32,057 nt of DNA from a virus: the IMG/VR virus record IMGVR_UViG_3300032245_000464, positions 1-32,057 of that record, one strand, 5' to 3'. Shown here piece by piece: positions 6,753 through 30,375 of this stretch (position 1 is its first letter; every line of letters starts with the position of its first letter). The position numbers were made by a program, and so were the translations under genes. The notes under the pieces are model-generated. The model had not been told where the DNA came from. It did not search any database and was given only the letters and a program-made list of their open reading frames with translations.

Positions 6753-6818
6753 TTGTTTTCTCCTTTATTAAGCAAGATGACGTTTTGAATTGTAGCCCCA
6801 CTATGGGCACTACATGTA

Positions 6819-6849: not shown

Positions 6850-6863
6850 AATATTTGGAAAAA

Positions 6864-8292: not shown

Positions 8293-8294
8293 GT

Positions 8295-14463: not shown

Positions 14464-14882
14464 CAACTGGAATTGTAAAACACCTTGAGTCCAAAAAACA
14501 GTTCCGCACGGGCTTCTTGAATGAATTTTAGATCACTGGGTTTGTAGTAATCATCAGCTTCATTGCCAAAAAAGAATCCTGATGTTGCAGGCAGGCGATC
14601 GTTTTGCACGTCATATTCCAAGTTGTCTAAATCTTCAGCGGTGAGTTCTAGTTCAATGCCGTTGAACTTGTCAGCATCATGATCACCGCCATTGCGTTGA
14701 TTCCACAAACGTTCCATCCAGCCATGCAGATTGGGATGTTTGCGCCAATAGCAAATTTGACGTGGCTTGTTAACATTGGGGTTTACAAATTCGCCAGTGT
14801 CTTTGTCATATTCGGCGCCATCGTAAAATTCATCTTGCTGACCTGCCTTGGCAGCCACGTATGCGTACATGTCAAGTCCCAT
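14460..14882 (-). CDS. Conserved-type phage protein (MGLDMY family)
   Basis: The 140-aa protein starts MGLDMYAYV and has QICYWRKHPNLHGWMERLW and a C-terminal ELFFGLKVFYNSSW. This pattern (MGLDMY, YWRKH.LHGWM) recurs in many phages and some bacteria; names given to it vary and I know no proven function. Strong Shine-Dalgarno CGGAG 8 nt before ATG. It overlaps the radical SAM gene by 4 nt. Confidence 0.75.
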   Translation of the reverse strand: MGLDMYAYVAAKAGQQDEFYDGAEYDKDTGEFVNPNVNKPRQICYWRKHPNLHGWMERLWNQRNGGDHDADKFNGIELELTAEDLDNLEYDVQNDRLPATSGFFFGNEADDYYKPSDLKFIQEARAELFFGLKVFYNSSW

Positions 14883-14893
14883 GGTTGTCTCCG

Positions 14894-15112
14894 TTAATCA
14901 AGTGGAACATTTTTCATTGGCTCAGTGCCATTCCAGTGTGCCTGGGTAATACATATACCTCGATATTGCACACCCATTGGGTGCTCGCCTTTTTTAGGCA
15001 GTGTTTTGATTGCCTTTTCACAGGCAGTTTTGGTAGGCATACTTACGGGCACTTTGTCTATGAAGTTGCCGCCGGGACTGATAAAGGCAATGAGCAAGAC
15101 CCATTCATTCAT
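14894..15112 (-). CDS. Small protein of unknown function (72 aa)
   Basis: MNEWVLLIAFISPGG at the N-terminus is moderately hydrophobic, followed by KTACEKAIKTLPKK and RGICITQAHW. The style (a short hydrophobic start, then a Cys-containing alpha/beta region) is shared with small phage proteins sometimes predicted to be exported; no domain is recognised. A GGAGG ribosome site lies 8 nt upstream. The start overlaps the preceding stop by one base (TAATG). Confidence 0.6.
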   Translation of the reverse strand: MNEWVLLIAFISPGGNFIDKVPVSMPTKTACEKAIKTLPKKGEHPMGVQYRGICITQAHWNGTEPMKNVPLD

Positions 15113-15393
15113 TATGCTGCCTCCAACATGTTAGCAGGGACCTTCCACAGCATCATGCCATCCTTGACTGTGATATATTTGATAGCAACTTTGGTCACTG
15201 TGCCAGTTACGGTGACGCCACGTTTGGTGCTGTGAAACTTCACTGTATCACCTTTGGTGAACGTGCGAATTTTCACTGCACGAAGTTGGGCACGAGCATA
15301 CTGCACCGCATCGTTGATGCTGTTGAGTTGCTCATTTGTAAAATTGCTGAACATGATCGAAGTGTTGACTTCTTGAATGGTTGCGTATGACAT
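15112..15393 (-). CDS. T4-like phage conserved small protein with SH3/KOW-like C-terminus
   Basis: A 93-aa protein. Residues 15-45 (FSNFTNEQLNSINDAVQYAR) form a helix, and the C-terminal half (GDTVKFHSTKRGVTVTGTVT, then ITVKDGMMLWKVPANML) looks like a small beta-barrel of SH3 or KOW type. I recognise this organisation from T4-like phages; function unknown, nucleic-acid binding possible. The Shine-Dalgarno AAGGAG is strong, and the promoter at 15423-15451 lies directly upstream. Confidence 0.72.
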   Translation of the reverse strand: MSYATIQEVNTSIMFSNFTNEQLNSINDAVQYARAQLRAVKIRTFTKGDTVKFHSTKRGVTVTGTVTKVAIKYITVKDGMMLWKVPANMLEAA

Positions 15394-15409
15394 CTCAGGC
15401 TCCTTTTTA

Positions 15410-15553
15410 CTACAATAACTCTATTATATACAAAACGGAATTTTTGGTCAACCAAATTGCGAGCACTGCAATCACCAGCAGTTCTACTACCGTAAATTTA
15501 GTACGATAGTATGCTTGTAATACTTTGTGTTTAATTTGATTTACCCGGTTCAT
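15410..15553 (-). CDS. 47-aa single-pass membrane peptide
   Basis: The frame starts at ATG 15553 and ends at TAG 15410. The product has a basic N-terminus (MNRVNQIKHKVLQAYYRTKF) and a hydrophobic helix (TVVELLVIAVLAIWL) followed by KNSVLYIIELL, so it should insert in the inner membrane. There is no room for a Shine-Dalgarno sequence: the -10 TATAAT of the promoter at 15559-15587 ends 5 nt before ATG, implying a leaderless message. The second promoter at 15423-15451 lies within its coding region. Candidate roles include toxin-like, lysis-timing or exclusion peptide, none demonstrated. The alternative is that this stretch is only a tandem promoter leader. Confidence 0.5.
   Translation of the reverse strand: MNRVNQIKHKVLQAYYRTKFTVVELLVIAVLAIWLTKNSVLYIIELL
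15423..15451 (-). promoter_or_regulatory. Sigma70-like promoter (inner of a tandem pair)
   Basis: On the minus strand TTGACC (15446-15451), a 17-bp spacer and TATAAT (15423-15428), starting transcription near 15416, just ahead of the AAGGAG of the 93-aa gene. The upstream half reads TTGACCAAAAATTCC, nearly the same as in the promoter at 15559. Confidence 0.88.
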
Positions 15554-15558
15554 GCTGT

Positions 15559-15587
15559 ATTATAGCACGTGGGCAATTTTTGGTCAA
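15559..15587 (-). promoter_or_regulatory. Sigma70-like promoter (outer of a tandem pair)
   Basis: On the minus strand TTGACC (15582-15587), a 17-bp spacer and TATAAT (15559-15564). It begins 4 nt after the stop codon of the virion-type gene ending at 15591. The predicted start point coincides with the ATG of the 47-aa peptide at 15553. Confidence 0.88.
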
Positions 15588-15590
15588 GTA

Positions 15591-16448
15591 CTACCCAAGT
15601 ACTACTTTTGCTCGGGCTTCAGCGGGTGTGTATTCATACTGAGCAATAGACACAGTTGGCGGGACAGCATTGGGCAGTTGGGGGATGTCGTTGTCTACTT
15701 TGATTCCAATCGCGTTGGTGCCTGCGTTGTTACCGGCTTCTAACAAAGCACCCACCATAGCCTGTCCATATTGGTTGGCTGTGTTAGCGATGCTGGTTAA
15801 GAAATCAAATGCCATACCTTCTTGACGGTCTTGTCCATATCCGGCCAATGCAGGAATAAAAGCAGTGATGGGCAATTGGGCGCCAGCAGTCAGCGTGGCG
15901 TAGTTGATACTTGCTTGAGTTTGAAACGTGGCTTCGTTGGCGCTGTGAGTGGTCATCGCAGTCCAGGCAGTGTTCAGTGTTGTGGTTGCTGTGCCCATGG
16001 CAGAGATGGCTGTGCCAATGGCAGCATCTGCTCCAGTTATCAACACTGCCAAGGCCGCATTATAAGATGCATAGGGATTTCCTGTGTTGTAAGGTGCTGG
16101 AAGATTTATTGCACCTGGCAACCCATATACATCGGTGATGAGATTTACCATATAAGAATATACAGTATTAAGTGTGGTCAGTGTGCCTGCTGTGAGTTGT
16201 GCAGAGATAGTCGAGGTAACTGTGGTCAAATCGTTGTTGTAAGGAATGCCGGCGGCTGACCCAAAAAAGTCTGTGGTTAGATATGTGCCATTGGGCCCTG
16301 ATCCTTTGGCCAAACTGTTTTGATAATATGTGGCCACAGCAGTAGGCACAGGAGTCTTAGTGCCATTGATTAAATCTAACCCTTTGAGAGTGGCTAGTTT
16401 TTTAGAATTACTAGCGGATACTGCCGCTATCTGAGAGAGTGTGGTCAT
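15591..16448 (-). CDS. Putative virion structural protein (285 aa)
   Basis: An Ala, Thr, Asn and Gly-rich protein of low charge without a recognisable catalytic motif, typical of phage tail or baseplate accessory proteins. N-terminal MTTLSQIAAVSASNSKKLAT, C-terminal VSIAQYEYTPAEARAKVVLG. It is coupled to the preceding 409-aa gene by an ATGA overlap and lies downstream of the PAAR gene. This order suggests that the three proteins belong to the same spike or baseplate assembly. Function is inferred from composition and position only. Confidence 0.6.
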   Translation of the reverse strand: MTTLSQIAAVSASNSKKLATLKGLDLINGTKTPVPTAVATYYQNSLAKGSGPNGTYLTTDFFGSAAGIPYNNDLTTVTSTISAQLTAGTLTTLNTVYSYMVNLITDVYGLPGAINLPAPYNTGNPYASYNAALAVLITGADAAIGTAISAMGTATTTLNTAWTAMTTHSANEATFQTQASINYATLTAGAQLPITAFIPALAGYGQDRQEGMAFDFLTSIANTANQYGQAMVGALLEAGNNAGTNAIGIKVDNDIPQLPNAVPPTVSIAQYEYTPAEARAKVVLG

Positions 16449-17674
16449 TGTAATATTGCCGCCAGTTGTTGTGTGGTTGTACCTGTAATGCCTTTGATCT
16501 GCTGAAATGCAATTTGCAATGCCCGGTTGGCAGCAGCGTTGGCAGGTGGAATAATTTTGGCCAAGTCATCGCAGCCAGTGGGACTCACTGAACCTGAATT
16601 CAATATAGGTGTTATGACAGAATTTACCGCGCCAGTTTCGTCGTATATTAACACAGGCCCACTGGGAGTAGGCAATGTCAAACTGCTGAAACTGGTAGGG
16701 AACAATTTCACAGGATTCAACAGGTCAGCCATGGTTTCAATACCTGGTGTAGTGCAATCCAGTATATCCAACACATCTTGCAAACAATTACCTTGCCCTG
16801 CAGATATCTGGTCATCTTGTAATCTGCTTACTACCGCGCCGAGACTGCCAGTAATTTTAGTAGTGCGAGTAATTTTAGTCAGTGCAGGATATGCTCTTCT
16901 TTGCAAAGTATCAAATTGATTTTGTGTAAGTCCAGTTTGATTGTACAGACTTTGTACATTGTCGTTTACAAGATCTGAAATGTCCTGATCTGTTAACCCT
17001 TCGGCCTTTAAGGCAGCAGTTACACAAGGAGTTGAACCATTCAACATGTTTCCACACTCGGCTAAATTTTGTAACAATCCTGCAGGGGTGCCAATGCGTT
17101 CTAGTCGAGTGAACTTGATTGCACAACCAATGTTGGCAAGGTCTGCACCAAATGCTGGAAATGCCAAATTGACCTGTGCTATGTCTCCGGTGATCAAATT
17201 GTTCATGTTGGAGAATGTGGGACCAAGATAATCATCACTGTTGGCATTGACTGCACTGTTGATGATGTTGTTTGTGAGACTGATGTATCCTTGAGCGGCG
17301 CCAAACGCCTGTGCAAACTTACCAAAGTCTCCTGAACCCAGATAGGTACTGGCCGCTGTAGTTATACTAGTAGCATAGCCTGCGTTGCCCACAGTCCATG
17401 ACACGTTGCTAGGCACTGAATCTCCCAAGGCAGGACAATAGTTTCCTGCTACATTGGCACCCAGTGTTTTGAGATTGGCTATTGTGCCTGCACTGATACC
17501 AAGACTGACATTGCTTGTGGCCTGGTTAATAGTGTATAACAAATTGGCTATGGGAGCCAGTGCATTATAACTGGCAATGCTATTGGATAGTTGTGTGTTG
17601 GCTGTGATAGCATTGCCTGAATAAAATCCCACACCTGCTGTGAGTTGTAAGGGTGTTGCTGTTGACTCTGCCAT
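16445..17674 (-). CDS. Putative virion structural protein (409 aa)
   Basis: A long protein rich in Ala, Asn, Ser and Thr, beginning MAESTATPLQLTAGVGFYSG, with scattered Cys pairs (GNCLQDVLDILDCTTPG) and no enzymatic motif. Its start overlaps the stop of the PAAR gene by one base and its end overlaps the 285-aa gene by 4 nt, so all three are co-translated. Composition and neighbourhood indicate a baseplate or tail component. The region 75-125 (NYCPALGDSVPSNVSWTVGN) could be a beta-rich domain. The specific role is unknown. Confidence 0.62.
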   Translation of the reverse strand: MAESTATPLQLTAGVGFYSGNAITANTQLSNSIASYNALAPIANLLYTINQATSNVSLGISAGTIANLKTLGANVAGNYCPALGDSVPSNVSWTVGNAGYATSITTAASTYLGSGDFGKFAQAFGAAQGYISLTNNIINSAVNANSDDYLGPTFSNMNNLITGDIAQVNLAFPAFGADLANIGCAIKFTRLERIGTPAGLLQNLAECGNMLNGSTPCVTAALKAEGLTDQDISDLVNDNVQSLYNQTGLTQNQFDTLQRRAYPALTKITRTTKITGSLGAVVSRLQDDQISAGQGNCLQDVLDILDCTTPGIETMADLLNPVKLFPTSFSSLTLPTPSGPVLIYDETGAVNSVITPILNSGSVSPTGCDDLAKIIPPANAAANRALQIAFQQIKGITGTTTQQLAAILQ

Positions 17675-17958
17675 TATGCTGCTCTCACTGTGCTAGATCC
17701 TGCCACACGACTGTGTCCGCAGGTATCTGAATCGCCATCTCTTATCACAGGTTTTCCTCCTGCACGTACTGTGCCTGAACCGCCCGAAGTCACTGCTGAA
17801 CAGTGTATGCCGCAACCAGGTTGTCCGCAGCATGGATGTGGTGTTACCCCGATACCAGGTACAACAATGGGGCGACCATTTACTCGTACAGAAGCCACAC
17901 CTGAAGTGTTGACTCCGCCTGCACCGTTTGGATCACCTTGTCGTTGTACTGCTGGCAT
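17674..17958 (-). CDS. PAAR-motif spike-tip protein
   Basis: The 94-aa protein has the repeating PAAR pattern: MPAVQRQGDPNGAGGVNTSG, VNGRPIVVPGIGV, the Cys/His-rich segment HPCCGQPGCGIHC (41-53), VRAGGKPVIRDGD and CGHSRVAGSSTV. PAAR proteins fold into a small cone with bound metal (usually three His and one Cys) and cap the trimeric spike that punctures the host envelope; T4 gp5.4 is the phage example. Its neighbours are likely spike or baseplate proteins. GGGA precedes ATG by 5 nt. Confidence 0.9.
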   Translation of the reverse strand: MPAVQRQGDPNGAGGVNTSGVASVRVNGRPIVVPGIGVTPHPCCGQPGCGIHCSAVTSGGSGTVRAGGKPVIRDGDSDTCGHSRVAGSSTVRAA

Positions 17959-17959
17959 G

Positions 17960-18259
17960 TTATCCCATTAAGATTTTATTGCGCACAGGTTTGATACCTG
18001 TTGTGGCTTCCAAATAACTGTCCCCAACGTCTTCACGCACAGGAGCGATCATGGCCACGCTAGATCTATTTACCGTGACTTCTTGCTCGGGATCTGCGGT
18101 AAACAGCGAGTTCATCAACTGTATGCCTTGCTGTCCAGGTACCACTGCTACAGGCTTGCTCAATGTATAGGTAGAGCTGTCAAGTGCTGTAATTTTTGCT
18201 ACAATTTCTTCACCATAGCCCATGCGCATGGTGTATGTGTTTCCTACTTCGATACTCAT
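17960..18259 (-). CDS. Conserved-type small phage protein (99 aa)
   Basis: MSIEVGNTYTMRMGYGEEIV is followed by alternating strands (AKITALDSSTYTLSKPVAVV) and ends with DSYLEATTGIKPVRNKILMG. The pattern of short beta-strands suggests a small barrel, perhaps Sm- or SH3-like. I recognise the type from T4-like phages, where the function is not established. Clear AAGGA 8 nt upstream; it lies 1 nt before the PAAR gene, so a virion-related or assembly function is possible. Confidence 0.65.
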   Translation of the reverse strand: MSIEVGNTYTMRMGYGEEIVAKITALDSSTYTLSKPVAVVPGQQGIQLMNSLFTADPEQEVTVNRSSVAMIAPVREDVGDSYLEATTGIKPVRNKILMG

Positions 18260-18861
18260 TCTAGTTCCTTTTTAACTATTGCCAACTGATAATTTACCAG
18301 GCCCAGTTTGAGTCTATCATAAAACATGTTTACAAAAGCATCAATACTGGCCTTGGCCCGTGCTAGATATCTTGGGTCTGCGTCCCACAAGTAATCGTCA
18401 AACAACATAACACCACCTGGACGCAACATACCAAAACACATTACTGCATCTGCTAGTGTTTCATCAGCATGATGACTGCCATCCACATAGATAAAATCAT
18501 ATTGTCGCTTGTCAACAATGAGTTGTGCCAGTGCAGGGAAACTCATGTCAGCATATACTTCCACAGTTTGTCCTGGCTTTTTAACTTCTGCAGTGTTAGC
18601 ACGAAAGATTTGTTCAATGCTGCGGTCTTCTGGAATCGAGTCCAGTGCAAATGCTGTAACAGGGCGATCAGCAAATGGATCAATACAGGTAATGGTGCCA
18701 GTATCTGACAGCATGTTTTCCAACATCCAACAACTGCTACGGCCTTCGTGGCTGCCAATTTCCAGTATGTCGTTGATGGGTTTTTCTTTTCTCAAATAAT
18801 CTTTGATGTATTCAAAGTTGACCAGGCCATTGCTGAACCAGTCGGATGTGAATTGTGGCAT
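18256..18861 (-). CDS. Class I SAM-dependent methyltransferase
   Basis: The 201-aa Rossmann protein has the SAM-binding glycine motif LEIGSHEGRSS (33-43), the acidic residue of strand 2 in ITCIDPF (Asp61) and FIYVDGSHHADETLADAV in the active region, features of the Methyltransf_24/cephalosporin-hydroxylase-like group that methylates small molecules or sugars. The segment RPGGVMLFDDYLW follows. The target is unknown; with the glycosyltransferase and aminotransferase elsewhere in the window, sugar O-methylation is one option. It overlaps glutaredoxin by 1 nt and the 99-aa gene by 4 nt. Confidence 0.8.
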   Translation of the reverse strand: MPQFTSDWFSNGLVNFEYIKDYLRKEKPINDILEIGSHEGRSSCWMLENMLSDTGTITCIDPFADRPVTAFALDSIPEDRSIEQIFRANTAEVKKPGQTVEVYADMSFPALAQLIVDKRQYDFIYVDGSHHADETLADAVMCFGMLRPGGVMLFDDYLWDADPRYLARAKASIDAFVNMFYDRLKLGLVNYQLAIVKKELE

Positions 18862-19082
18862 TACATCAACCTTTGGCGTAGTTCCTGGAATCCACCCACA
18901 TACTCATCATCCAAGAAGATTTGTGGCACTGATCGTGCAGTAGGCACTGATTCTAATAGTTGTTCACGTGTCCAGTCTTGACTGATGTTGCGTACTTCAT
19001 ATTCGATGCCTTTCATTTCCAACAAGCCTTTGGCTTGTTCGCAGAAGGTGCATTGGTCTTTTGACCATACTATTGCTTTCAT
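18861..19082 (-). CDS. Glutaredoxin
   Basis: A 73-aa thioredoxin-fold protein with the redox site CTFC (11-14), the cis-proline loop RSVPQIF (50-56) and the GG-containing C-terminal element YVGGFQEL. It reduces the disulfide of class Ia ribonucleotide reductase, whose large subunit here ends in a CESC tail. Gene order nrdB-75aa-grx on one strand supports this. The length is typical of phage glutaredoxins. AAAGGA lies upstream. It overlaps the preceding 75-aa gene by ATGA. Confidence 0.92.
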   Translation of the reverse strand: MKAIVWSKDQCTFCEQAKGLLEMKGIEYEVRNISQDWTREQLLESVPTARSVPQIFLDDEYVGGFQELRQRLM

Positions 19083-19306
19083 TTTGTTTTTCCTTTGGAG
19101 TCTAGTTTAATAATACACGGTGAATCAATACGATCCGACATGGCTTTGACACCATCTGCCCAGGTGTGCATTTTTGCTGACAACCAGTCTAAAAATTGCA
19201 CTCGCAGACAGCGATTCTTTTCTTCAATGCGTTCAAACTTGCTCATTACATTGCGAATGTTTTGAAAGTCTTCCGACTCTCGTATTGCAGGATTAGGTTT
19301 ATACAT
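19079..19306 (-). CDS. Small helical protein of unknown function (75 aa)
   Basis: MYKPNPAIRESEDFQNIRNV is followed by a charged helix (SKFERIEEKNRCLRVQFLDW) and a basic tail. Good AAAGGA ribosome site 7 nt before ATG and ATGA coupling to glutaredoxin. Its position between nrdB and glutaredoxin hints at a nucleotide-metabolism context, but no domain is recognised. Confidence 0.6.
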   Translation of the reverse strand: MYKPNPAIRESEDFQNIRNVMSKFERIEEKNRCLRVQFLDWLSAKMHTWADGVKAMSDRIDSPCIIKLDSKGKTK

Positions 19307-19315
19307 ATTTTCCTT

Positions 19316-20428
19316 TTATAAATTTGGTAGTTCATCGTAGTCCAAGCTGTCGCTCATGGCGCCGATAACATAGTTAGTTGATTCGTTCTCCTGCAGTGCA
19401 GTTTGTTTCTTGCTTGTGTCCACGTGCTTCATAAACCAAGGAATTGGTGTGCTACGCGGTGCAGGCTCCAGATACTTGATACCAATTTCTTTGAGTGCGC
19501 CCACTGCTGTGTAGTCCACAAAGTCCTTTAGGATTTGTGCATTGAGTCCAATCACAGGACCTAGCTTGAACAAATAGTCAGCCCAGGCTTTTTCTTCACG
19601 GATCACATCCAGATACATTTGATACACTTCGGCTTCACATTCTGCTTTGGCTGCGGCAAAACGTGGATCTTCTTTGACAACTTGGTTGATCATCCATGCA
19701 GTCCAGTCCTTGTGCAGGATTTCATCTTGCAGGATCAAACTGATGATGTTGCCGTTGCCAATAAAGATACGGTTCTCTACCATGGCCAATGACGTAGCAA
19801 ATGAAACCATGAAGCGGAATGCCTCTAGTGCATAACTGGCATTGAGTGCCAACCAAATTGCCTTGATATGTTCTTGTTCAAGAACCATACCTGTCATTTC
19901 ACTACTTAATTCTTTATGGCAATTTATTCTGTGTAGTTCGTCGTAGTACTTGCCCACACTGGATGCCATGTCCACAATCTCTTGTGTGTCGTGAATGGTG
20001 TTGAACACATCTTTGGGCACGTTGTAGATGTTGCGAATGATGTGCGAATAACTTCTACTGTGGATATTGGTTTCAAAGAAACTCCAGTTGTACATCAAGG
20101 CTTCCAGTTCAGGAATACCCACCACAGGAGTAAACACCTGTGCTGGGCCACGTCCTTGCAAACTATCCAATGCTGTTTGACGCAACAAGTTTGATGTAAA
20201 GATATGCTTGACTGTGTCGCTTGCATCTTTGAAGTCATTGGCGTCTTTGGTCAAGGATACTTCTTCTGGAATCCAAAAGAAGCCACGTGCTTCTTGTTCA
20301 AACTTCACAAGTTTATTGTACTTGACTTCTTCAAAGCGTTGAATTGTAACAGGACCTGCTGGGTCAAGAAACATCTTGCGATGCAGATAATCAGTTTTGG
20401 TTGAGAGATTGTATTGTGCTTGGCTCAT
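19316..20428 (-). CDS. nrdB: Ribonucleoside-diphosphate reductase class Ia, beta subunit
   Basis: The 370-aa ferritin-like protein holds the di-iron and tyrosyl radical site: Asp88 (ALDSLQGR), Glu119 and His123 (FFETNIHSRSY), Tyr127, Glu202 (YALEAFRF), Glu236 and His239 (QDEILHK). The Glu119 to His123 interval is one residue longer than in E. coli (Glu115 to His118), while the other intervals agree. The C-terminal tail (LDYDELPNL) would bind NrdA. It produces the radical for dNTP synthesis. The gene overlaps the AspH-like gene by 4 nt and is separated from nrdA by two modification-enzyme genes. No clear Shine-Dalgarno; translational coupling is likely. Confidence 0.95.
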   Translation of the reverse strand: MSQAQYNLSTKTDYLHRKMFLDPAGPVTIQRFEEVKYNKLVKFEQEARGFFWIPEEVSLTKDANDFKDASDTVKHIFTSNLLRQTALDSLQGRGPAQVFTPVVGIPELEALMYNWSFFETNIHSRSYSHIIRNIYNVPKDVFNTIHDTQEIVDMASSVGKYYDELHRINCHKELSSEMTGMVLEQEHIKAIWLALNASYALEAFRFMVSFATSLAMVENRIFIGNGNIISLILQDEILHKDWTAWMINQVVKEDPRFAAAKAECEAEVYQMYLDVIREEKAWADYLFKLGPVIGLNAQILKDFVDYTAVGALKEIGIKYLEPAPRSTPIPWFMKHVDTSKKQTALQENESTNYVIGAMSDSLDYDELPNL

Positions 20429-21222
20429 GTTTGTAAGTTGCTCATAGTTTTTAAATAATATTCTTTTTCATTGAATGGCTTGGCATATTTTTCCAATCGG
20501 TCGTCGTACAATGACCCTGGTGGCATACCGATGAATTCTCTATCTAAATCAATCATAAAGGTTAATCGATACTCATTAGACAAATTCCAAGAACTGTGTG
20601 CTAATTGATTATTAAATCCAACCAACCCACTCCAATCAACTTTTTCTCCGTTTACCTCTAAAAAAATGTCCCCCTCAGGAATAATCAGCGGTATATGTAT
20701 CCTGATATATTTTCCACTTCTATTCTCAGGGCCAGTATGTCTATGCAAAACTGTTCTTGGGCCTAGCACACTGTATAAAGATATTGGGCAGTATTCTCCG
20801 TAGTGTTTTATCAAACTCATTGCAGTAGGATATTGATTTGCCAACGAGGGATTGTCTTTTTCTAAATCATATTTTACATTATCTGCCCATGTTGGTGTGC
20901 GTGTTTCATATTTTAAAGACAAATTTTTCCAACTGTTGAGATTTTCTGTAAACTGATTTGTTTCTTGGTCAAATGTTTCAAGCAGTATTGGCTCAACGTT
21001 TTGTTGGTTTTGTACACCGTTGTATCCTTGGTAATCCCATCCCAAAGTACGAATACATCGTTCGTTAGCAAATGCTTCTTCTAAAGAATTAAACCCTGCT
21101 AAAAATTCTTCAGTTAATTTTTCTTGAAAACTCATCAGGTAATCGGCCACTGGTATCTCATGATGTTTGTATATTGCTTGTGGCCAAACAATATCATCTA
21201 AATTTGTTGAATTATCAATCAT
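20425..21222 (-). CDS. Aspartyl/asparaginyl beta-hydroxylase-like dioxygenase
   Basis: The 265-aa protein has the AspH-type core in its C-terminal half: SVLGPRTVLHRHTGPENR (151-168) with metal ligand His162, YIRIHIPL (Arg174), VDWSGLVGFNNQLAHSSW with the second ligand His209, and NEYRLTFMID with Arg219 for the co-substrate. AspH enzymes use only two His ligands, as seen here. The first 140 residues are a separate, uncharacterised domain. Family members hydroxylate Asp, Asn or peptides; the target is unknown. It lies between the PRMT-like gene (8-nt overlap) and nrdB (4-nt overlap). Confidence 0.8.
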   Translation of the reverse strand: MIDNSTNLDDIVWPQAIYKHHEIPVADYLMSFQEKLTEEFLAGFNSLEEAFANERCIRTLGWDYQGYNGVQNQQNVEPILLETFDQETNQFTENLNSWKNLSLKYETRTPTWADNVKYDLEKDNPSLANQYPTAMSLIKHYGEYCPISLYSVLGPRTVLHRHTGPENRSGKYIRIHIPLIIPEGDIFLEVNGEKVDWSGLVGFNNQLAHSSWNLSNEYRLTFMIDLDREFIGMPPGSLYDDRLEKYAKPFNEKEYYLKTMSNLQT

Positions 21223-22135
21223 ATGTTTTTTCCTTTATTGTATATGATATTTTCCCTGTGCAGAAATCGTGTTCTACCAATATTTTGCTGTTGGGTGCGT
21301 TTATCACCGCAGGATTTGCTGGTAGTTTCCAATGGCCAGTATCCAAGTAAAGTCTATCACTGCTATGTTGCATGCCTGCTCTGGGCACAATCAACACTGG
21401 TTGCTTGTCTATGTCAACTCGCAGTCGACGAACAGACTCATTCACAAACTGTGCGTTAGCATCAATCATGTATCGACCAGCATAGGTGTCGTTGGTGGCC
21501 CAGTCTATGTAAGTTGGCATGGGGGTTAGTTCTGTAACACCCTTGGGCAAACCTACTTTTGACTTGATGGGTTTATTGTATTTTTTTGACAACAACAAAT
21601 TGATGCACGACACAAATTGTGGATCAACATCCACACCTGGCGAGAACTGATGCTCTTCATGTGCTTGAATCAAATTACAAGCAACTTCTGCAGATATTGG
21701 CACAGCATATATTTCTAAGAAATATTGACCTGGCAAAAATCTCTTGCCTGGCTGCCTAGGCAGACTGTTGTACAGGCCTTCGCCCCAGATGTTGTCGTCC
21801 ACAGTCTCAGTAAACACCACGCTCTCGTTGTGATGGCATGTGTGATCATAGCGTCGATTGATCAGTGTAATTCGATCTTGCAGTTTCAACATCTTGATTA
21901 CTTCGCAGCCTAACTGATAACGATCAGCGTCTGACTCATAGGCCACAATGCTACGGGCACCATGCTTCAAGGCCAGCATGCTCAACAAACCCGTACCAAA
22001 TCCAATCTCTACACAATGTTGATCACGCACTTCGGTTAGAATCTGATCGTAGAAATGATTTCGCGAGACGTCATTTAGCATGGAGAGATATACCCCATCG
22101 TGATTTTCAAAATCAACGCGATCTAAAAAGTCCAT
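21215..22135 (-). CDS. PRMT-like class I methyltransferase
   Basis: The 306-aa protein has motif I VEIGFGTGLLSM (42-53), the ribose-binding Glu67 in VAYESD, and a double-glutamate loop with Glu110 (FTETVDD) and Glu119 (IWGEG), the hallmark of protein arginine methyltransferases. A beta-barrel-like second half follows. Phage-encoded PRMT relatives are found in T4-like phages; substrates are not known. It starts 2 nt after the nrdA stop, right after a TATAAT sequence at 22136-22141 that has no matching -35. Confidence 0.75.
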   Translation of the reverse strand: MDFLDRVDFENHDGVYLSMLNDVSRNHFYDQILTEVRDQHCVEIGFGTGLLSMLALKHGARSIVAYESDADRYQLGCEVIKMLKLQDRITLINRRYDHTCHHNESVVFTETVDDNIWGEGLYNSLPRQPGKRFLPGQYFLEIYAVPISAEVACNLIQAHEEHQFSPGVDVDPQFVSCINLLLSKKYNKPIKSKVGLPKGVTELTPMPTYIDWATNDTYAGRYMIDANAQFVNESVRRLRVDIDKQPVLIVPRAGMQHSSDRLYLDTGHWKLPANPAVINAPNSKILVEHDFCTGKISYTIKEKTYD

Positions 22136-22137
22136 GA

Positions 22138-24462
22138 TTATAGTTTACAGGATTCGCAGTCTTCTACATCATCAAAGTCAATGACTTCCAAGGGTGCAGC
22201 TTCTTCTTTGGCCGCTTTGGCACCTTGTTTGTTGATTAGACTGTAATAGAATGTCTTGATACCCCAGTGATGTGCTTGCATCAAGTTCTTGGCAATCAAT
22301 GTGGTGGGTACTTTGCGATCTGACCAGTGCGCAGGATTGTAGAATGTGTTGGTTGAGATTGACTGATCAATGTATGCTGCTAACACAGCGGCTGTTTTCA
22401 AGTAGCCAATGCAATCTTGTTGTGCCCACATTAGTTGGTACTTGTTTTTTAACTTGTGATACTCAGGTACCACTTGCGTCAAACTGCCTGCTTTAGATTC
22501 TTTGACTGAGATCAGGCTCATGGGCATTTCAATGCCATTGGTTGAGTTGATCACAACCGAGCTAGACTCTACAGGTGCCACTGCCATCAAGGTAGCGTTT
22601 CGAACTCCGTATGCTCGCATGTTGCCACGCAGGGTATTCCAATCCAGTGCAGGATCAGGTGTGAAGTCTGTGAGTTCGTTGACACCTTTGGCACGTAGTT
22701 CCCAAGGGAAAATTCCTTTGCCGTAACGTGTCTTGTCCGAGTCCTTGCAACAGCCTCGTTCTTTGGCCAATTCCACTGTGGCTTCGGTTAGGTAGTAGGC
22801 TTGGTGTTCCATCCAGGACTTGACTTCTGCTAGTGCATCTTTCTCGCCATATTCAAGTCCACGCTTGGCATGCCAGTAAGCCAAATTTGTAATACCAATG
22901 CCTAGTGGTTGAATCTCATCGTTGCTCAATTGAGACTGGATGGAGAGAAAATCTTGATAATCCAGTATGTTGCAAAGGCTACGCTGAAGAATGCGACAAG
23001 CACGGCGCATATCTTCTGGATGACGGAATGCGCCCCAGTTGATTGATCCAAGGGTACAAAGAGCGATGCGACCAGTATCGTCATCCAAACGTTTAAAGGG
23101 CTTAGTAGGAAGAAGTATTTCACAGCAAAGGTTACTCTGGTAAATGGTATGATATTCAGGATCAAACGGTCCTTGATTCATCACGTTGTCAACAAACACT
23201 AGATAGATACGTCCGGTGTCAGTACGTTCTTTGAGAATGCCTGACTTGAACACTTCTTCTGCACTCATTGTTTTCTTGCGCAGGTCCTTGCGCTTTTCGT
23301 ATTCAACGTACAGTTCTTCAAAGCGTTCAGTGTTTTGATAGAATGCTTCGTATAGATCTGGCACTTGGTTGGGGTCAAAGAATGTGATGTTTTCTTTGTT
23401 CTTGAAACGTCTCCAAAAGAACGCACTCAGCACCACACCATAGTCCATGTGGCGCACACGAGTTTCTTCTGTGCCTTGATTGTTCTTTAATACGATTAGA
23501 TCATCAAACTGATGATGCCATATGGGATAGAACACAGTGGCTGATGCATTGCGGATGCCGCCCTGACTACAACTGCGCAGATCACCAAACCACTTTTTCA
23601 AGAATGGAATCATGCCAGTGTGCATGATTTCGCCACCGCGAATTGGGGAGCCCAAGGGACGCAAACGTCCAATCTCTAATCCAATGCCAGCACGTTTGCT
23701 GGCATACTTGGCCATCATCTCACCGCTGGCAAATATACTATCGAGGTCATCATCGGATCGGATAAGAACACAACTGCTAAATTGCTTAGTAGGAGTACCA
23801 AGGCCAGCAAGCACAGGAGTTGCCAAAGTAAAGAGTCCATCACTCGCCGCAGTGTAATATTCTTTAATGTATCGCATGCGGGCTGTATTAGGTTCTTCCT
23901 TATGGAAAACTGTGGCCGCTGCCACCATGTATCTAACTTGCGGAGTTTCATATGTTTGTCCTGTACTACGATTCTTTACTAGGTATTTTTCAATCAACTG
24001 CTCTACTGCGGCATAACTGTAGCTTTCATCCTTGGCATGATCAATCATGTCTTGCATCTTGTTCCAGTCGTCCTCTGTGTACCATTCCAACAGTTCAGGA
24101 GTGTACAATCCGACTTCTACATTCTTCTTTACAAGATCATACAAGTGCGGAGGATCGTAGCTGCCGTATACATCTTTACGCAACATGCTGAGTCGCTGTT
24201 TGCCTGCCACATACTGATAGTTGGTATGCCCAACATCAGGGTTTGACTCTACATCAATCAAGTCCACAATAGCACGTAGTGTAATACCGTCAATTTCTTT
24301 GGTGGTAATACCATCGTAAAAGTGCAACTGTGCTTTGATCTCTACCATGCTCTGGCTAACGTCTGCTATGCCTGAACATACTTTGGCAATTTGGGTTTGC
24401 CATTTTTCCAAGGCGAGCGGTTCTCTACGCCCACTGCGCTTTACAACTGTAATGCTTTTCAT
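22138..24462 (-). CDS. nrdA: Ribonucleoside-diphosphate reductase class Ia, alpha subunit
   Basis: The 774-aa protein has an N-terminal ATP-cone (VVKRSGRREPLALEKW), the redox cysteines Cys231 and Cys469, the active-site loop SNLCCEILLPT (Asn444, Cys446, Glu448), the radical-transfer tyrosine pair in KTFYYSL, and a C-terminal CESC (Cys769, Cys772) that shuttles electrons from glutaredoxin. It reduces ribonucleoside diphosphates for phage DNA synthesis and, having an intact ATP-cone, should keep dATP feedback. Length matches bacterial NrdA. GGAT lies 4 nt before ATG. It heads the nrd segment of the long minus-strand run. Confidence 0.96.
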   Translation of the reverse strand: MKSITVVKRSGRREPLALEKWQTQIAKVCSGIADVSQSMVEIKAQLHFYDGITTKEIDGITLRAIVDLIDVESNPDVGHTNYQYVAGKQRLSMLRKDVYGSYDPPHLYDLVKKNVEVGLYTPELLEWYTEDDWNKMQDMIDHAKDESYSYAAVEQLIEKYLVKNRSTGQTYETPQVRYMVAAATVFHKEEPNTARMRYIKEYYTAASDGLFTLATPVLAGLGTPTKQFSSCVLIRSDDDLDSIFASGEMMAKYASKRAGIGLEIGRLRPLGSPIRGGEIMHTGMIPFLKKWFGDLRSCSQGGIRNASATVFYPIWHHQFDDLIVLKNNQGTEETRVRHMDYGVVLSAFFWRRFKNKENITFFDPNQVPDLYEAFYQNTERFEELYVEYEKRKDLRKKTMSAEEVFKSGILKERTDTGRIYLVFVDNVMNQGPFDPEYHTIYQSNLCCEILLPTKPFKRLDDDTGRIALCTLGSINWGAFRHPEDMRRACRILQRSLCNILDYQDFLSIQSQLSNDEIQPLGIGITNLAYWHAKRGLEYGEKDALAEVKSWMEHQAYYLTEATVELAKERGCCKDSDKTRYGKGIFPWELRAKGVNELTDFTPDPALDWNTLRGNMRAYGVRNATLMAVAPVESSSVVINSTNGIEMPMSLISVKESKAGSLTQVVPEYHKLKNKYQLMWAQQDCIGYLKTAAVLAAYIDQSISTNTFYNPAHWSDRKVPTTLIAKNLMQAHHWGIKTFYYSLINKQGAKAAKEEAAPLEVIDFDDVEDCESCKL

Positions 24463-24468
24463 TTTATC

Positions 24469-24894
24469 CTAACGAATTTTTTGTTTTATTTGTTCTTGAC
24501 TGACACGCCGACGGGGTTTTGACTTTCCCAGACTGATATTTACGACTTGATCAGGATCCCAATTCAGTATATATTTCTCTTGAGCGACTAGGACTAAATT
24601 GTCGCTTTGATATTCAATCATGCAGGAATCCTGCATGTCCACACGGTCTAGCATAGCTATAGTATACATGATTCCCAAGCCTCTAGCGACCGGACAATAC
24701 AGGTTATCACTCAATAACTGCCAGGGATCAGGCCAATCCGCTTGGTCGTCCCAATGCAAGTGGTAGGCAGTCCAGGGAGTTTGGAACCACCATTGATTGA
24801 TTTTGATTAAAGCAGGCTCTGAGTCCAGTGTTTGACATTGCTGTCTTAACTGTGCCCAACTCTCCAGCCGCTCACTGAAGTCTCTAGGCCACAT
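24469..24894 (-). CDS. T4-like phage conserved protein of unknown function (141 aa)
   Basis: Begins MWPRDFSERLESWAQLRQQC and is rich in Trp (KINQWWFQTPWTAYHLHWDD), ending in a basic tail KPRRRVSQEQIKQKIR. I recognise this Trp-rich protein from T4-like marine phages, where it commonly sits near replication or RNR genes; no function is known. It follows the tailspike gene by 5 nt and precedes nrdA by 6 nt. No strong ribosome site is visible. Confidence 0.72.
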   Translation of the reverse strand: MWPRDFSERLESWAQLRQQCQTLDSEPALIKINQWWFQTPWTAYHLHWDDQADWPDPWQLLSDNLYCPVARGLGIMYTIAMLDRVDMQDSCMIEYQSDNLVLVAQEKYILNWDPDQVVNISLGKSKPRRRVSQEQIKQKIR

Positions 24895-24899
24895 TGTGT

Positions 24900-26651
24900 T
24901 TAATAACTACGGCCCAAGTGTGTCAAACTATAATAGATTTTGCCAGCGGCTCTGGCGCTACTAGTGGTATACTTTATGCTCATTGTGCTGCCTACGTCAG
25001 TAACTTCTAATATTACATCAGTGTCTGAATTTTGCACATAGTCATCAGTATAACTCAATCCATCGCCGGCTGAATCGTCAGCATCGTTGACCACTGTCAT
25101 AGTACCTGTGCGTACTGAAGTTTCTCTAGTAATTGTGTAATCCATCTGGAATGCTTTGATCTGCACTGAACTCACTGTGAGCAATGTAGTAGCGGTGGCA
25201 CCAGCACTGAGTGTTGCTTGTGTACCAGTTTCTCTTACAAAACTGCCCATTTGAATTTGAGCGGCACTGTCAATACCAATGCTGGCAGGCACAGTCTGTG
25301 TGGTAGAATTAAAGATTTTAATTCTAGGATAGGTACCACTGTAAGCTGTAGTGCGCTGAAACATGTCTCCAACGCTGATATTGTTGATAGCATCAATTGT
25401 GATCACTGCTGATGCAGGACTTGCTGAGCCATTGAAGTGATTGCCTACGTCATAGAATATATTATATCCAGTGGCATTCAAACTCACCCCATTGATATAG
25501 ATGCCTTCTTCGTAGATGTTGTCAAACACATTGCCTATGAATTTTACACCTGTTGGCCCACCATTGCTGGGACTTGCACCTCCCAATATAGCACCTTGAT
25601 ACAACGTATCAAATTGACCGTTGCTGACTACACTGCCTTCAATTTGCTGTTCAGTATTCATGCTGTATGTAAATCCAGAAAACTTGCAGTTATCAAAGTT
25701 TACTTGTTTGCATGGCAGGCTTGGCGTGCTGGCCCAATCAACACATCGTGTGTCATCAACAGAAGTAGTGAGATCTGTTGCGGTCAACGGTCCAATAAAA
25801 TTCATGTTGCTGAAAGAACATTGTTGTGCGTTTTCAATCAACAGCCCATTGTTTATTTGGTCAGTAACAATGGCCATGCTGGACATTTCGATGTTCTTTG
25901 GTGGAGTGGCACCATTGGTGGCAATATTTACGCCGGTCTGTTGCAAACTGTCAGCAGTCTGCACCACATAACTAGGCAATGATTCAGCTGCCCAATACAA
26001 TGCATTTGAAATCACAACGCCTGTGGCAGGCACAGGAGCAATGCTTCTATAGTATGTGCTGGTGGGAACATAGTACACCAATGTGGCTTCAGCATAGGCG
26101 GTGTTGGCTGCCCAATTTTGCACTGAGAAATTGATGATCGAGCTGTCAGCGCCTTCGCCGTAGAGTCGAGCATAAGGCGGAATTTTTATTGTGTCAGTGA
26201 TTATATAATTACCGGCAGGGAAAAACAAACTGCGACGAATTGCAATGTTGTTCTGCACACAGAACAGTTGATACAATGCACGATTAATGGCTGCTGTGTC
26301 ATCTGTTACTCCGTCGCCTACTGCGCCAAAATCAGTTATCACTGCATAACTGTCCAGGCGACTTTGTATGCTTTGTGAAACAGGACTACTGGGTGTGGCA
26401 CCTGTTTGTGCAGTGTATCCAGCTGCTTCACCTTTGTAAGTGTACTGGCCAGCAAAACTCAAAATGTCCGAAAACTCAGTTAAGATCTCAGTGTTGCCAA
26501 CAACAGGAGCACCTTCTTCTAATGCACCATTACCAATGAACAATCTACGATCATCAACTGCCCAACCCAGTTCAGCTCCGGCCAGTGGTTGAGGTAAGTC
26601 TTCTTGTAGACCCTTGCGGGCGGTAATTCGAGATATTTGTATAATTGCCAC
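24900..26651 (-). CDS. Tailspike / receptor-binding protein with beta-helix domain
   Basis: The 583-aa protein has an N-terminal attachment segment resembling the Mtd N-terminal domain (RITARKGLQEDL, then LGWAVDDRRLFIGNG, 8-42) and a pectate-lyase-like right-handed beta-helix from about residue 104 (VITDFGAVGDGVTDDTAAIN) to about 430, followed by a Thr/Ser-rich C-terminal beta domain. This is the architecture of phage tailspikes that bind or cleave surface polysaccharide. No catalytic residues can be assigned by eye. Start is GTG at 26651 with AAGGA upstream, but that ribosome site is locked in a hairpin. It is embedded among metabolic genes, so its expression needs separate timing. This is a likely rapidly exchanged host-range gene. 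Confidence 0.85.
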   Translation of the reverse strand: MAIIQISRITARKGLQEDLPQPLAGAELGWAVDDRRLFIGNGALEEGAPVVGNTEILTEFSDILSFAGQYTYKGEAAGYTAQTGATPSSPVSQSIQSRLDSYAVITDFGAVGDGVTDDTAAINRALYQLFCVQNNIAIRRSLFFPAGNYIITDTIKIPPYARLYGEGADSSIINFSVQNWAANTAYAEATLVYYVPTSTYYRSIAPVPATGVVISNALYWAAESLPSYVVQTADSLQQTGVNIATNGATPPKNIEMSSMAIVTDQINNGLLIENAQQCSFSNMNFIGPLTATDLTTSVDDTRCVDWASTPSLPCKQVNFDNCKFSGFTYSMNTEQQIEGSVVSNGQFDTLYQGAILGGASPSNGGPTGVKFIGNVFDNIYEEGIYINGVSLNATGYNIFYDVGNHFNGSASPASAVITIDAINNISVGDMFQRTTAYSGTYPRIKIFNSTTQTVPASIGIDSAAQIQMGSFVRETGTQATLSAGATATTLLTVSSVQIKAFQMDYTITRETSVRTGTMTVVNDADDSAGDGLSYTDDYVQNSDTDVILEVTDVGSTMSIKYTTSSARAAGKIYYSLTHLGRSY

Positions 26652-26653
26652 AG

Positions 26654-26681
26654 TGTGATTCCTTGAGGTATCACATATTTA
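26654..26681 (-). promoter_or_regulatory. RBS-sequestering hairpin plus late-type TAAATA box of the tailspike gene
   Basis: On the minus strand TGTGAT (26670-26675) pairs with ATCACA (26654-26659); inside, CC pairs with GG across a TCAA loop with one A-A mismatch. The tailspike Shine-Dalgarno AAGGA is in the 3' arm. GCTAAATA ends at 26676, so a start six nucleotides downstream would be at about 26670 and would omit nearly the whole 5' arm. The hairpin also spans the stop codon of the exonuclease gene. Confidence 0.55.
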
Positions 26682-27432
26682 GCAAGTAATACTGTTCAAC
26701 CTTTTTCCACCACAAGTCCCGGTACTTTTCGAACTCCCGACCTTCCAGCACAAATTCCTGATATTCAGGCTGTGTGATCATGTTCATTTGTTCGTCTAGC
26801 TGGGGTTTAACGCACATCAAAACTACGCCTTTTTTGATTTTTGTACCATGTAATTCGTTATGTGCTTCTGCGTAGGCACACAACTGCACAAAGTAGTCAT
26901 CAATCCACTCGCGTTTTTTGGGCTTGTTGGTTTGCTTGTAGTCCAGGATGGCTTCTTCATTCAAGTGTATGCCCGCACCGTCTGTGGTACCTGCGTACAC
27001 TTTAGGAAAATACAGCGGAACTTCAATGCCCCAAAACTCACTCACATTTTTTAGCCCATGCTCTACAACTTTGTGTGCCATGGCATGGCTTGCCCAACTA
27101 AAAGGATTTGTGCCACGGTCTTTGATAGCGCCTTCTTTGACATACTGCTCAAGGTAGGTGTGCATCCTTGTGCCACGATTGGCTGCTTCTGTGGTGATGG
27201 TCTGTGCTTGTTCTACCCCTACTCTGGCACGCCAGTTTTGTAGTGCTTTTTTACTTTCCTCACTCTTGGTCTTGTCAAGTATGGTTGTCACAGAAGGCAG
27301 TTTGTTGCCGTCGGGAGTGGCATAATACCTCTTGCCTTCGATAACAACTCTAGGCACTGGCTGGTAATCAAAACGGGGATTTAACAAATTAAACTCTAAA
27401 ACTTTCTCCGCATCCACAGCGGTCGCGTTCAT
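26671..27432 (-). CDS. PD-(D/E)XK exonuclease (RecB/Cas4-like)
   Basis: A 253-aa nuclease from ATG 27432 (an ATG at 27477 would add 15 residues). It shows PSVTTILDKT, RGTRMHTYLE (His and Glu near the N-terminal helix), TTDGAGI with the first Asp, AILDYKQT supplying the D-x-K catalytic pair, and the helical FVQLCAYA with the Gln of motif QxxxY. This is the standard T4-like phage exonuclease related to RecB-family nucleases, acting in recombination or host-DNA degradation. Both candidate starts lie inside iscA (44 or 89 nt overlap) and neither has a clear ribosome site; a TTG nearer the conserved FNLLNPRF block is possible. Confidence 0.83.
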   Translation of the reverse strand: MNATAVDAEKVLEFNLLNPRFDYQPVPRVVIEGKRYYATPDGNKLPSVTTILDKTKSEESKKALQNWRARVGVEQAQTITTEAANRGTRMHTYLEQYVKEGAIKDRGTNPFSWASHAMAHKVVEHGLKNVSEFWGIEVPLYFPKVYAGTTDGAGIHLNEEAILDYKQTNKPKKREWIDDYFVQLCAYAEAHNELHGTKIKKGVVLMCVKPQLDEQMNMITQPEYQEFVLEGREFEKYRDLWWKKVEQYYLLNM

Positions 27433-27712
27433 TGGGGTTGGTAAATTCAAAACCTTCGTTGAGGCCTTGGCGTACATAGTCTACTTGGGTTCCACGCAAG
27501 TACACATCATGTTTTTTGTCAACTAGCACACAGAAATCATTTTGGGCATAATTTATGGTACTAGCATCAGGTTCATACTGTTTAACGTATTCTAACACAT
27601 AAGCCAATCCTGAGCAACCTGTTGTTTTTATGCCCAATCTTATGCCAGCATAGCCTTTGGCTTTGACTAATTTCTGTATTTTGGTTTGAGCCTGATCGGT
27701 TATGGTTATCAT
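27389..27712 (-). CDS. iscA: IscA/HesB A-type iron-sulfur carrier
   Basis: The 107-aa protein has the three invariant cysteines of the A-type carrier family: Cys33 in TTGCSG and Cys99 and Cys101 in RCGCGESF, with the family start MITITDQAQTKI. These proteins receive Fe-S clusters and pass them to target enzymes. HesB-like genes occur in several aquatic T4-like phages. It is next to a radical SAM gene that needs a 4Fe-4S cluster and shares the operon with IscU. TTAAATA, built on the stop codon of the upstream gene, ends 5 nt before ATG; there is no Shine-Dalgarno. Confidence 0.92.
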   Translation of the reverse strand: MITITDQAQTKIQKLVKAKGYAGIRLGIKTTGCSGLAYVLEYVKQYEPDASTINYAQNDFCVLVDKKHDVYLRGTQVDYVRQGLNEGFEFTNPNERDRCGCGESFRV

Positions 27713-27720
27713 ATTGATAT

Positions 27721-29439
27721 TTAATCTACGTCTGAGTGAATTTTGTCAATCATTTTTTGGAACTCAGAATTAACTGCCATTTTTAAAAATTTACGACGAT
27801 GATCAATCTCCAGAAATTCTGACAGGTATTTCAAAAAAGAGGCATCTTTGGTCAGTTGCAATCCCAGCGTTAAATCTGGAATTTGCGTGGGCTTGCCAGA
27901 AAAATCTATTGTATAATAAAAATTATTTTTCAGTGTCCAGTTGTGGTAAAGATTATTGTAAAGATTTGTATAGTGCTTGCTGGTTAAAAATTTATCAACA
28001 ATGCAAGAAATATTCAATGTTTGAGCACAGTGTTCTCGCAGTGCAAAATTAATAGCACTCAATGACAGGTACATAGCAGACAACAAATTCATTTGTACAA
28101 GATCTTTTTGATCAAAAGAACTGCTTTTTTTTGGAATTTTGCTTGAATAAACAGTGCCAAGTATTCTATTGCTGTAGATGTATTCGTATTGAAATTTGCG
28201 TTGATATTCAGGATCATATATGGCCGGACTTGCCGGCAACGGTTCGTTTAAAAAGATCACAGGTAAAATATCTTTTTGTGTTACTTGGTCAAGAGTTTGT
28301 CGCCAAGATGCAGGAGTCTGGCCAGGCAGTCCATATATCAACTGAGCTTTAACAATCAAATGGGGATATTTCTCGCGCAATTCATCAGCCATGGCAACAT
28401 GAACATCCCATCCAACATCAGGTCGATCAATGTTGTCTAATACCTGTTTGTTGATGTCTTGCACTGAGAAATTCAAAGTTTTATTGACCAGCTTGCCCTG
28501 TGCCATGATGTTGAAAATTTTCAAATTGTTTTCTTTTTTGAGCTTGCTGAAATTCCCGCCCACATGGAACCCAGCATTTTCATTGAGATTTTTTTGAGCG
28601 AAATAATCAATCATTTCGACATCTTCAGTGTACTGGCCAACATTGGCATCTGACAGATATATATTGGTCACTCCCAATCTTTGAAACAGATCAATTTCTT
28701 GCTGATAAGTGTTTTTTCGTCGAGACACTTTGTTGCCAAGTCCACTGTTCCAATCACAAAATGTGCATGAGTATGGGCATCCTCTTGTAAGTGTGTAAGG
28801 CAACCACACAGGTACATTTTTCTTTTTGGCATCTACCACCATGGCTTCAAACATTGTTTGGTTGTGTACAAACGGGCTGGTTTCTATCATTTTTACAAAC
28901 TTGTAGTCAGCCACTGTGGTTTTGCCAGTTTGCTGATTTCGCCAAGCACAGTTGGAAGTGTTGAATGCGATCAACGGTTTTTTAACAGCCAGGTGTGCAA
29001 CAATGTCTGCAAATGCCTGTTCGCCAGCACCGTATACTGCATAATCAATGCTGGGGTATTGATCAAAGAATTCTGAATTGTTGTTGACATCAATACTGGG
29101 CCCTCCAGCAATTATCTTAAACGTAGATTTCAACTGTGGTTTTATTGTTGCTATTTGCCGCGTCAAAAACGCATGATTCCAAAGGTAGTGGCTAGTGCAT
29201 AGCACATCTGCGTTTGTATGGTTGATGTGTTTGATTAATTCTTCGTCAGTGATTTCTTGCTGTATGGGAATCAACCATTCTAGGCATTCAGCCACGTCTG
29301 GATAAAACAAATCAATGTAGGTTTTTAATTGCAGTGCCGCAGGATACAGCCAAGCTGTGTGGCCACCAGCATGATAGAATAATATTTTTAGTTTGTTGTC
29401 TTGCTCAACAACATCACGTTGCTGAAAGGGTATCAGCAT
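27721..29439 (-). CDS. Radical SAM protein with N-terminal B12-binding-like domain
   Basis: The 572-aa protein has a Rossmann-like N-terminal domain (about 15-155, with KIIAGGPSIDV and YAVYGAGEQAF) typical of cobalamin-binding radical SAM enzymes, then the core LPYTLTRGCPYSCTFCDW with Cys221, Cys225 and Cys228, VTNIYLSDANVGQ, and KAQLIYGLPGQTPASW. The DxHxxG cobalamin-ligand motif is not seen, so cobalamin may be bound base-off without His, or not at all. Related enzymes are methyltransferases or cyclases of small molecules and peptides. The C-terminal 170 residues are unassigned. It lies between iscU and iscA and overlaps iscU by 26 nt. Substrate unknown. Confidence 0.85.
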   Translation of the reverse strand: MLIPFQQRDVVEQDNKLKILFYHAGGHTAWLYPAALQLKTYIDLFYPDVAECLEWLIPIQQEITDEELIKHINHTNADVLCTSHYLWNHAFLTRQIATIKPQLKSTFKIIAGGPSIDVNNNSEFFDQYPSIDYAVYGAGEQAFADIVAHLAVKKPLIAFNTSNCAWRNQQTGKTTVADYKFVKMIETSPFVHNQTMFEAMVVDAKKKNVPVWLPYTLTRGCPYSCTFCDWNSGLGNKVSRRKNTYQQEIDLFQRLGVTNIYLSDANVGQYTEDVEMIDYFAQKNLNENAGFHVGGNFSKLKKENNLKIFNIMAQGKLVNKTLNFSVQDINKQVLDNIDRPDVGWDVHVAMADELREKYPHLIVKAQLIYGLPGQTPASWRQTLDQVTQKDILPVIFLNEPLPASPAIYDPEYQRKFQYEYIYSNRILGTVYSSKIPKKSSSFDQKDLVQMNLLSAMYLSLSAINFALREHCAQTLNISCIVDKFLTSKHYTNLYNNLYHNWTLKNNFYYTIDFSGKPTQIPDLTLGLQLTKDASFLKYLSEFLEIDHRRKFLKMAVNSEFQKMIDKIHSDVD

Positions 29440-30346: not shown

Positions 30347-30375
30347 ATTATAGACTAAGCAGTCTAGGATGTCAA
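30347..30375 (-). promoter_or_regulatory. Perfect-consensus sigma70 promoter with palindromic spacer
   Basis: On the minus strand TTGACA (30370-30375), 17 bp and TATAAT (30347-30352) match the consensus exactly. The spacer holds TAGACT-AAGC-AGTCTA (30351-30366), a perfect 6-bp inverted repeat touching the -10, a plausible operator. It drives the sulfotransferase-like, iscU, radical SAM and iscA genes and possibly the whole minus-strand run to 15591. Confidence 0.92.

Follow-up and report, generated by a model that had tools for sequence, protein, structure and literature searches.

A probable promoter-gated RNA lock on the tailspike gene of a T4-related phage

Synthesis of the tailspike encoded in the 32,057-nt stretch of viral DNA analysed here (the window, a virus record of 32 kb) is probably controlled by a promoter-gated RNA lock, whose start site, late timing and extent of silencing are all predictions. 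An mRNA entering by way of the upstream exonuclease gene would carry both strands of a two-part hairpin, the upper part hiding the Shine-Dalgarno sequence (SD) and spacer and the lower part pairing the start codon to bases that belong to the promoter itself, and ribosomes would initiate poorly on the tailspike in such read-through mRNA. A polymerase positioned at a TAAATA box would start at ~26670, where the 5' arm of the hairpin ends, and the resulting late mRNA would hold no 5' strand for pairing, leaving the SD and the GUG open. Because the proximal late promoter would both make and unlock the message, tailspike synthesis would be delayed to the late period despite the position of the gene in an exonuclease/ribonucleotide-reductase block.

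Layout of the exonuclease-tailspike junction

Coordinates are given on the plus strand, although the reading frames place all real genes around the site on the minus strand, to which the features described below belong; a plus-strand reading was rejected, since the open reading frames (ORFs) of that strand look spurious there. Read 5' to 3' on the minus strand, the junction is TTGC-TAAATA-TGTGAT-A-CC-TCAA-GG-A-ATCACA-CT-GTG-GCAA. The upstream gene (26671-27477) encodes a PD-(D/E)XK exonuclease of the RecB/Cas4-like type (phrog_298, E=1e-53); its ORF ends in ...TTG CTA AAT ATG TGA, and the TGA stop (26673-26671) falls in the 5' arm of the hairpin, 20 nt ahead of the GTG start (26651-26649) of the tailspike gene (24900-26651). 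The TAAATA box is located at 26676-26681. We take T4 late-promoter geometry to place +1 at the sixth base after the box, which gives a predicted late start at 26670-26671 (~26670); this position is consistent with a class of boxes, described below, that lie 4-8 nt from a start codon and whose transcripts would begin at the ATG.

In the predicted fold, the 5' arm UGUGAU (26670-26675), which is also recognized by comparison among relatives, pairs with the 3' arm AUCACA (26654-26659), situated between the SD and the start. The arms enclose an inner CC/GG stem with a UCAA loop (26661-26668; CC at 26668-26667 and GG at 26662-26661). The preliminary description had placed the SD in the 3' arm of a hairpin beginning at the end of the exonuclease gene. 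Both arms are present (26675-26670 and 26659-26654), but the SD, AAGGA (26660-26664), 8 nt ahead of the GTG, is not part of the outer 3' arm. It is located immediately 5' of it, extending across the apical loop and inner stem. It turns out that the structure is also larger than was first noted. The minimum-energy fold contains a lower stem between UUGCUA (26685-26680), which overlaps the promoter box and takes in the GCTA of the GCTAAATA box, and UGGCAA (26650-26645), which holds the UG of the GUG start. All 5' strands (26685-26670) are thus at or upstream of the predicted +1 (~26670), the box itself ending at 26676, and the geometry agrees with the initial proposal that a late transcript would lose nearly all of the 5' arm.

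TAAATA as a late-type promoter element

Relatives of the window were found via the exonuclease and include records of 212 kb and 225 kb. The bare hexamer TAAATA occurs 18 times within the window, not above chance (16.8 expected), whereas it is above chance in the longer relatives (212-225 kb) and strand-biased in two of them. Among the upstream hexamers of two relatives TAAATA stands out, with 94 occurrences in 525 upstream 60-mers, compared with 11-37 for its permutations and 58 for the overlapping AAATAT. The distance from TAAATA to the start codon is bimodal in two relatives (35 cases at 4-8 nt, none at 9-14 nt and 39 at 15-27 nt), and the spacing class is preserved between orthologous genes (10 and 10, with no switches). 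The hexamer is found before the sheath and fibre-like genes of the relatives and is absent from their helicase, gp44, PhoH, NrdA and NrdB genes; in phage CBB, a member of the same wider group, ATAAATA is present upstream of structural genes (PMC5259590). On the basis of the hexamer enrichment, the conserved spacing, the gene classes and the CBB precedent, TAAATA can be read as the T4-like late promoter element of this phage group, late timing being part of the prediction, and the late-type box proposed earlier stands, since it is enriched before genes of relatives and its position before the tailspike is conserved. The octamer TATAAATA, the T4 late consensus, was rejected as the box in favour of TAAATA, because it occurs only twice in the window, at chance.

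Homologues of T4 gp17, gp18, gp23, gp4, gp41, gp43 and gp44 were detected by phmmer in G001 and G002, two relatives of the window record, which assigns the phage group to the T4-superfamily myoviruses. Homologues of gp55 (phrog_234, phrog_12791) or gp45 (phrog_223) were not found in G001-G003; these records may lack parts of the genomes, and the families may be divergent.

TAAATA boxes only 4-8 nt before a start, with no room for an SD, occur in the window at 763-770 (minus), 1034-1039 (plus), 2949-2954 (plus), 5126-5131 (plus), 9809-9814 (minus) and 27718-27723 (minus), and the same class is represented by 35 cases across the G001 and G002 genomes. From their spacing, these boxes are predicted to give leaderless late mRNAs. 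The class is found in none of 16 T4 late genes and, with a single exception, is absent from 100 kb of phage PA5oct. A broader scheme, to which we give slightly less than even credence, is that the phages have two late start formats distinguished by the distance of TAAATA, namely leaderless starts without an SD (4-8 nt) and starts behind a short SD leader (15-27 nt), and that a few of the SD-leader genes, the tailspike above all, are locked and would be opened only by promoter-proximal initiation, the GC of the promoter doubling as a lock strand on the start codon.

Folding energies and controls

Read-through RNA (26700-26622) is predicted to fold at -16.0 kcal/mol, compared with -9.4 +/- 2.5 kcal/mol for shuffled sequences (4 of 200 as good), and RNA from the predicted start at 26670 is nearly unstructured (-1.9 kcal/mol). 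Opening the region from the SD to the start costs 10.5 kcal/mol on the read-through RNA versus 2.9 kcal/mol on the late RNA; by prediction, the SD and start are sequestered in a helix on RNA initiated upstream. When the sequence upstream of +1 was shuffled (30 nt, together with the first 5 leader bases), the opening cost was 5.4 +/- 1.9 kcal/mol (p=0.014), and an earlier null for a window-type leader gave p=0.15 when the arm was shuffled by itself and the box kept in place. Because of these two values, the single-sequence energetics are modest, suggestive rather than strong, and the comparative evidence carries the case.

The identical method was applied to T4 genes as positive controls. Gene e gave 16.0 versus 4.0 kcal/mol (0 of 200 shuffles) and gene 49 gave 12.6 versus 2.8 kcal/mol (p=0.03). 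The tailspike had originally been likened to T4 e and soc; the effect was recovered for e, as well as for 49, but the opening-cost test revealed no hairpin-lock effect for soc. Most of the 38 SD-type late leaders in two long relatives are also without a lock effect, and the tailspike genes are near the top of the ranking.

A 1755-aa fibre-like gene of G001 (record L081; box at 5576, region about 5570-5610) ranks beside the tailspikes. Its SD, AGGAC, is predicted to pair with GTCCT upstream of TAAATA (12.5 versus 2.2 kcal/mol, 0 of 150 shuffles), and this is possibly a second adhesin gene with a similar lock. In the leader of a ClpS-like gene the box precedes a long near-perfect hairpin (GTGGCAGCAATCCTGCTGCCAC), at about 111880-111930 in L086 (G001) and about 36285-36340 in G002. 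In L207 (region 383-404) and L296 (TAAATATGTGATAGCGATGAAGGACATCGC), AAGGA is surrounded by a strong hairpin, GCGATG/CATCGC, the whole of which falls downstream of the predicted start, and no ORF was seen to begin within 60 nt.

Conservation of the leader and hairpin

Protein-based searches, which are unbiased with respect to the leader, yielded 64 distinct tailspike upstream regions, and in 63 of these TAAATA is present 21-30 nt before the tailspike start. GC directly precedes the box in 60 of the 63 tailspike leaders versus 12 of 75 boxes of other genes, as would be expected from pairing of this GC with the GGC at the start codon. At least four of the expected arm pairs are retained in about three quarters of the unbiased relatives (49 of 63), and at least three of the expected lower-stem pairs in 43 of 63. 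Addition of pattern searches increased the collection to 87 distinct leaders. In a register-free test, in which the first 8 nt after the box were paired with the rest of the leader, 46 of the 87 have at least five Watson-Crick pairs, whereas leaders with swapped arms gave 28.9 +/- 2.6 and none of 2000 swaps reached 46, statistics that ignore shared descent. Native arms also hide the start better than swapped arms (7.9 versus 5.8 kcal/mol). Compensated stems comprise TGTAAT/ATTACA (L114), GTAATA/TATTAC (L335), TGTAATC/GATTACA (L179 and L351) and TGGAA/TTCCA (L305). These comparisons support the view that the hairpin has been kept in most relatives, partly through compensatory change.

Other relatives depart from this pattern. 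The hairpin has an A-C mismatch in L109, L121 and L361, and the lock is missing in several of the lineages compared (the CTGGATAG clade and L159/L169). Among 39 leaders without GTGAT, only five pair (2.0 expected, about 0.03). Covariation in a fixed register is weak (7 of 500 and 85 of 500 shuffles reach the score), since there are two registers in which the 3' arm can pair. A clade of six records (L051, L059, L063, L065, L075 and L076) is without the GTGAT hairpin just after the exonuclease match; here ATTCTG upstream of the box is complementary to a CAGAAT immediately ahead of the SD and might serve as another form of lock.

The main rival to the promoter-gated lock is translational coupling, because the stop codon of the exonuclease gene is inside the 5' arm. 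Ribosomes ending at this TGA would melt the hairpin and hand over to the tailspike, read-through mRNA would be active in proportion to exonuclease translation, and the hairpin would block only independent initiation. The short distance from the TGA to the GTG fits this idea, and most relatives likewise have the stop within the arm or at the box. In L149, L155, L158 and L166, however, the exonuclease ends with a TAG ~26 nt upstream of the hairpin, and the box and hairpin are unchanged; the leader is likewise kept in L061 and L077, where the stop is upstream as well. A ribosome stopping ~26 nt upstream would not reach the hairpin, which disfavors coupling as a general explanation, and we regard it as improbable, although ribosomes that finish the exonuclease within the 5' arm could open the hairpin in part. 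Since L149, L155, L158 and L166 keep the element with an upstream stop, it would not be a product of exonuclease coding and is best seen as travelling with the tailspike gene.

Two further explanations are less likely than the promoter-gated lock. The first, which we consider slightly less probable than coupling, is a plain late promoter and leader with an incidental hairpin, passed on through descent, whose sequence is restricted by what the exonuclease C-terminus, the stop codon and the SD require. The lineages in which the hairpin is absent or broken, PA5oct (see below) and the weak fixed-register covariation are all compatible with it, but the hairpin is kept where the 5' arm is non-coding, and the arm-swap result (not corrected for phylogeny), the compensated variants and the GC before the box argue against coincidence. 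The second, to which we assign the lowest probability, is that the inverted repeat TGTGAT-N10-ATCACA, a near-palindrome at about -5 to +17, serves as a DNA operator over the late promoter start site, to which a repressor of the phage or the host would bind; in contrast to what such a site would suggest, the arm spacing is variable (leaders of 22-27 nt) with two pairing registers relative to the SD, and the lower stem takes its 3' strand from the beginning of the coding sequence. CRP sites have an N6 spacing, from which TGTGA-N12-TCACA departs, and a CRP operator was rejected because the spacing is wrong and the arms re-register. A terminator was also rejected, since the hairpin is without a U-run and absent from a terminator scan, and an Rfam search gave no match.

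The tailspike and its gene context

The tailspike product comprises 583 aa, with an N-terminal phage-fibre-like domain and a pectate-lyase-like beta-helix, and matches PF12708 (64 bits; cut-off 27) and tail spike/appendage PHROGs. Its AlphaFold model (pLDDT 81) has a beta-helix and a C-terminal beta-rich part, and the best PDB matches by Foldseek are phage tailspikes (Sf6, Fri1 and phi297); because the TM-scores are low (0.2-0.3), the model-based assignment is one of fold class rather than of close relation. Relatives of the protein are mostly collinear over the full length, with about 40-90% identity outside the N-domain. The preliminary description called this a host-range gene, which is a guess, because what the relatives show is conservation and collinearity of the protein, not hypervariability.

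The tailspike gene is flanked by the exonuclease and NrdA genes, the latter (22138-24462, minus strand; phrog_84, E=6e-265) located downstream after a 141-aa ORF. A perfect sigma-70-type promoter, TTGACA-17-TATAAT (30347-30375, minus strand; 12/12 matches), is situated 3.7 kb upstream of the tailspike on the same strand, and similar promoters are recognized about 3.2 kb upstream in several relatives. Given this promoter as a possible source, early read-through into the tailspike is plausible. The box at 27718-27723 lies, by box and ORF positions, 5 nt ahead of a 107-aa gene that precedes the exonuclease; since this predicted late box (27723-27718) is upstream of the exonuclease, late read-through RNA would possibly be locked too. 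The window also contains, within 5923-9803 and 12925-29439, ClpS-like, Hsp20 and Clp-type ATPase-like genes and radical-SAM proteins, one of which has a B12-binding domain. DNA comparison of the region with isolates gave only short, weak matches.

Comparison with known systems

By terminase and exonuclease, the relatives of the window match PA5oct and the wider group of RaK2-like jumbo phages that includes CBB and GAP32. In CBB and GAP32 the ATAAATA-type motif is likewise upstream of structural genes (PMC5259590); a hairpin lock is not described in those phages. In PA5oct the exonuclease is followed by a structural protein gene with TAAATA 28 nt ahead of it, and then by a small ORF, NrdA and NrdB. 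This structural protein (gp243) was found by ESI-MS/MS, and its N-domain is homologous to that of the tailspike (E=1e-10). The syntenic PA5oct gene has the box and no lock (2.4 versus 2.8 kcal/mol), and for this reason the lock appears to be restricted to the clade of the window and its neighbours. In RaK2, a protein with a similar N-terminal motif, as judged by eye, is encoded just before nrdA.

In T4 genes e and 49, a late promoter is immediately upstream, and long early transcripts are locked whereas late ones are open (PMC3014915). The tailspike junction resembles them in its TATAAATA-type late promoter and in the location of the 5' strand of the SD hairpin at or upstream of the late start. 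It differs in that the gene is a tailspike of a distant phage group, the hairpin sequence is another one, and part of the box forms the lower stem with the start codon. The T4 homing endonuclease gene I-TevI has a late promoter embedded in an early/middle operon, and the hairpin is gone from the late transcript (PMC2988022). This embedded promoter and hairpin-free late transcript are shared by I-TevI, I-TevII, I-TevIII, segB and Aeh1 mobE, all of the T4 type, but those are selfish endonuclease genes, whereas here a virion adhesin is concerned and no intron is present. In the open-access literature we found no report of such a lock on a tailspike or tail fibre gene.

The T4 e/I-TevI switch has been documented in a handful of T-even-like phages, whereas dozens of distinct natural versions are found here, in environmental phages distant from T4 and on an attachment-protein gene within a nucleotide-metabolism block. 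They form a natural mutational series (intact, mismatched, compensated, re-registered and lost) that offers a direct test of the model, and they suggest a way of keeping a structural gene inside an early operon; the promoter map further predicts leaderless late mRNAs, unlike the T4 late genes checked. Thus, by analogy with T4 e, 49 and I-TevI, the tailspike lock would be a known kind of switch in a new gene and a new phage group.
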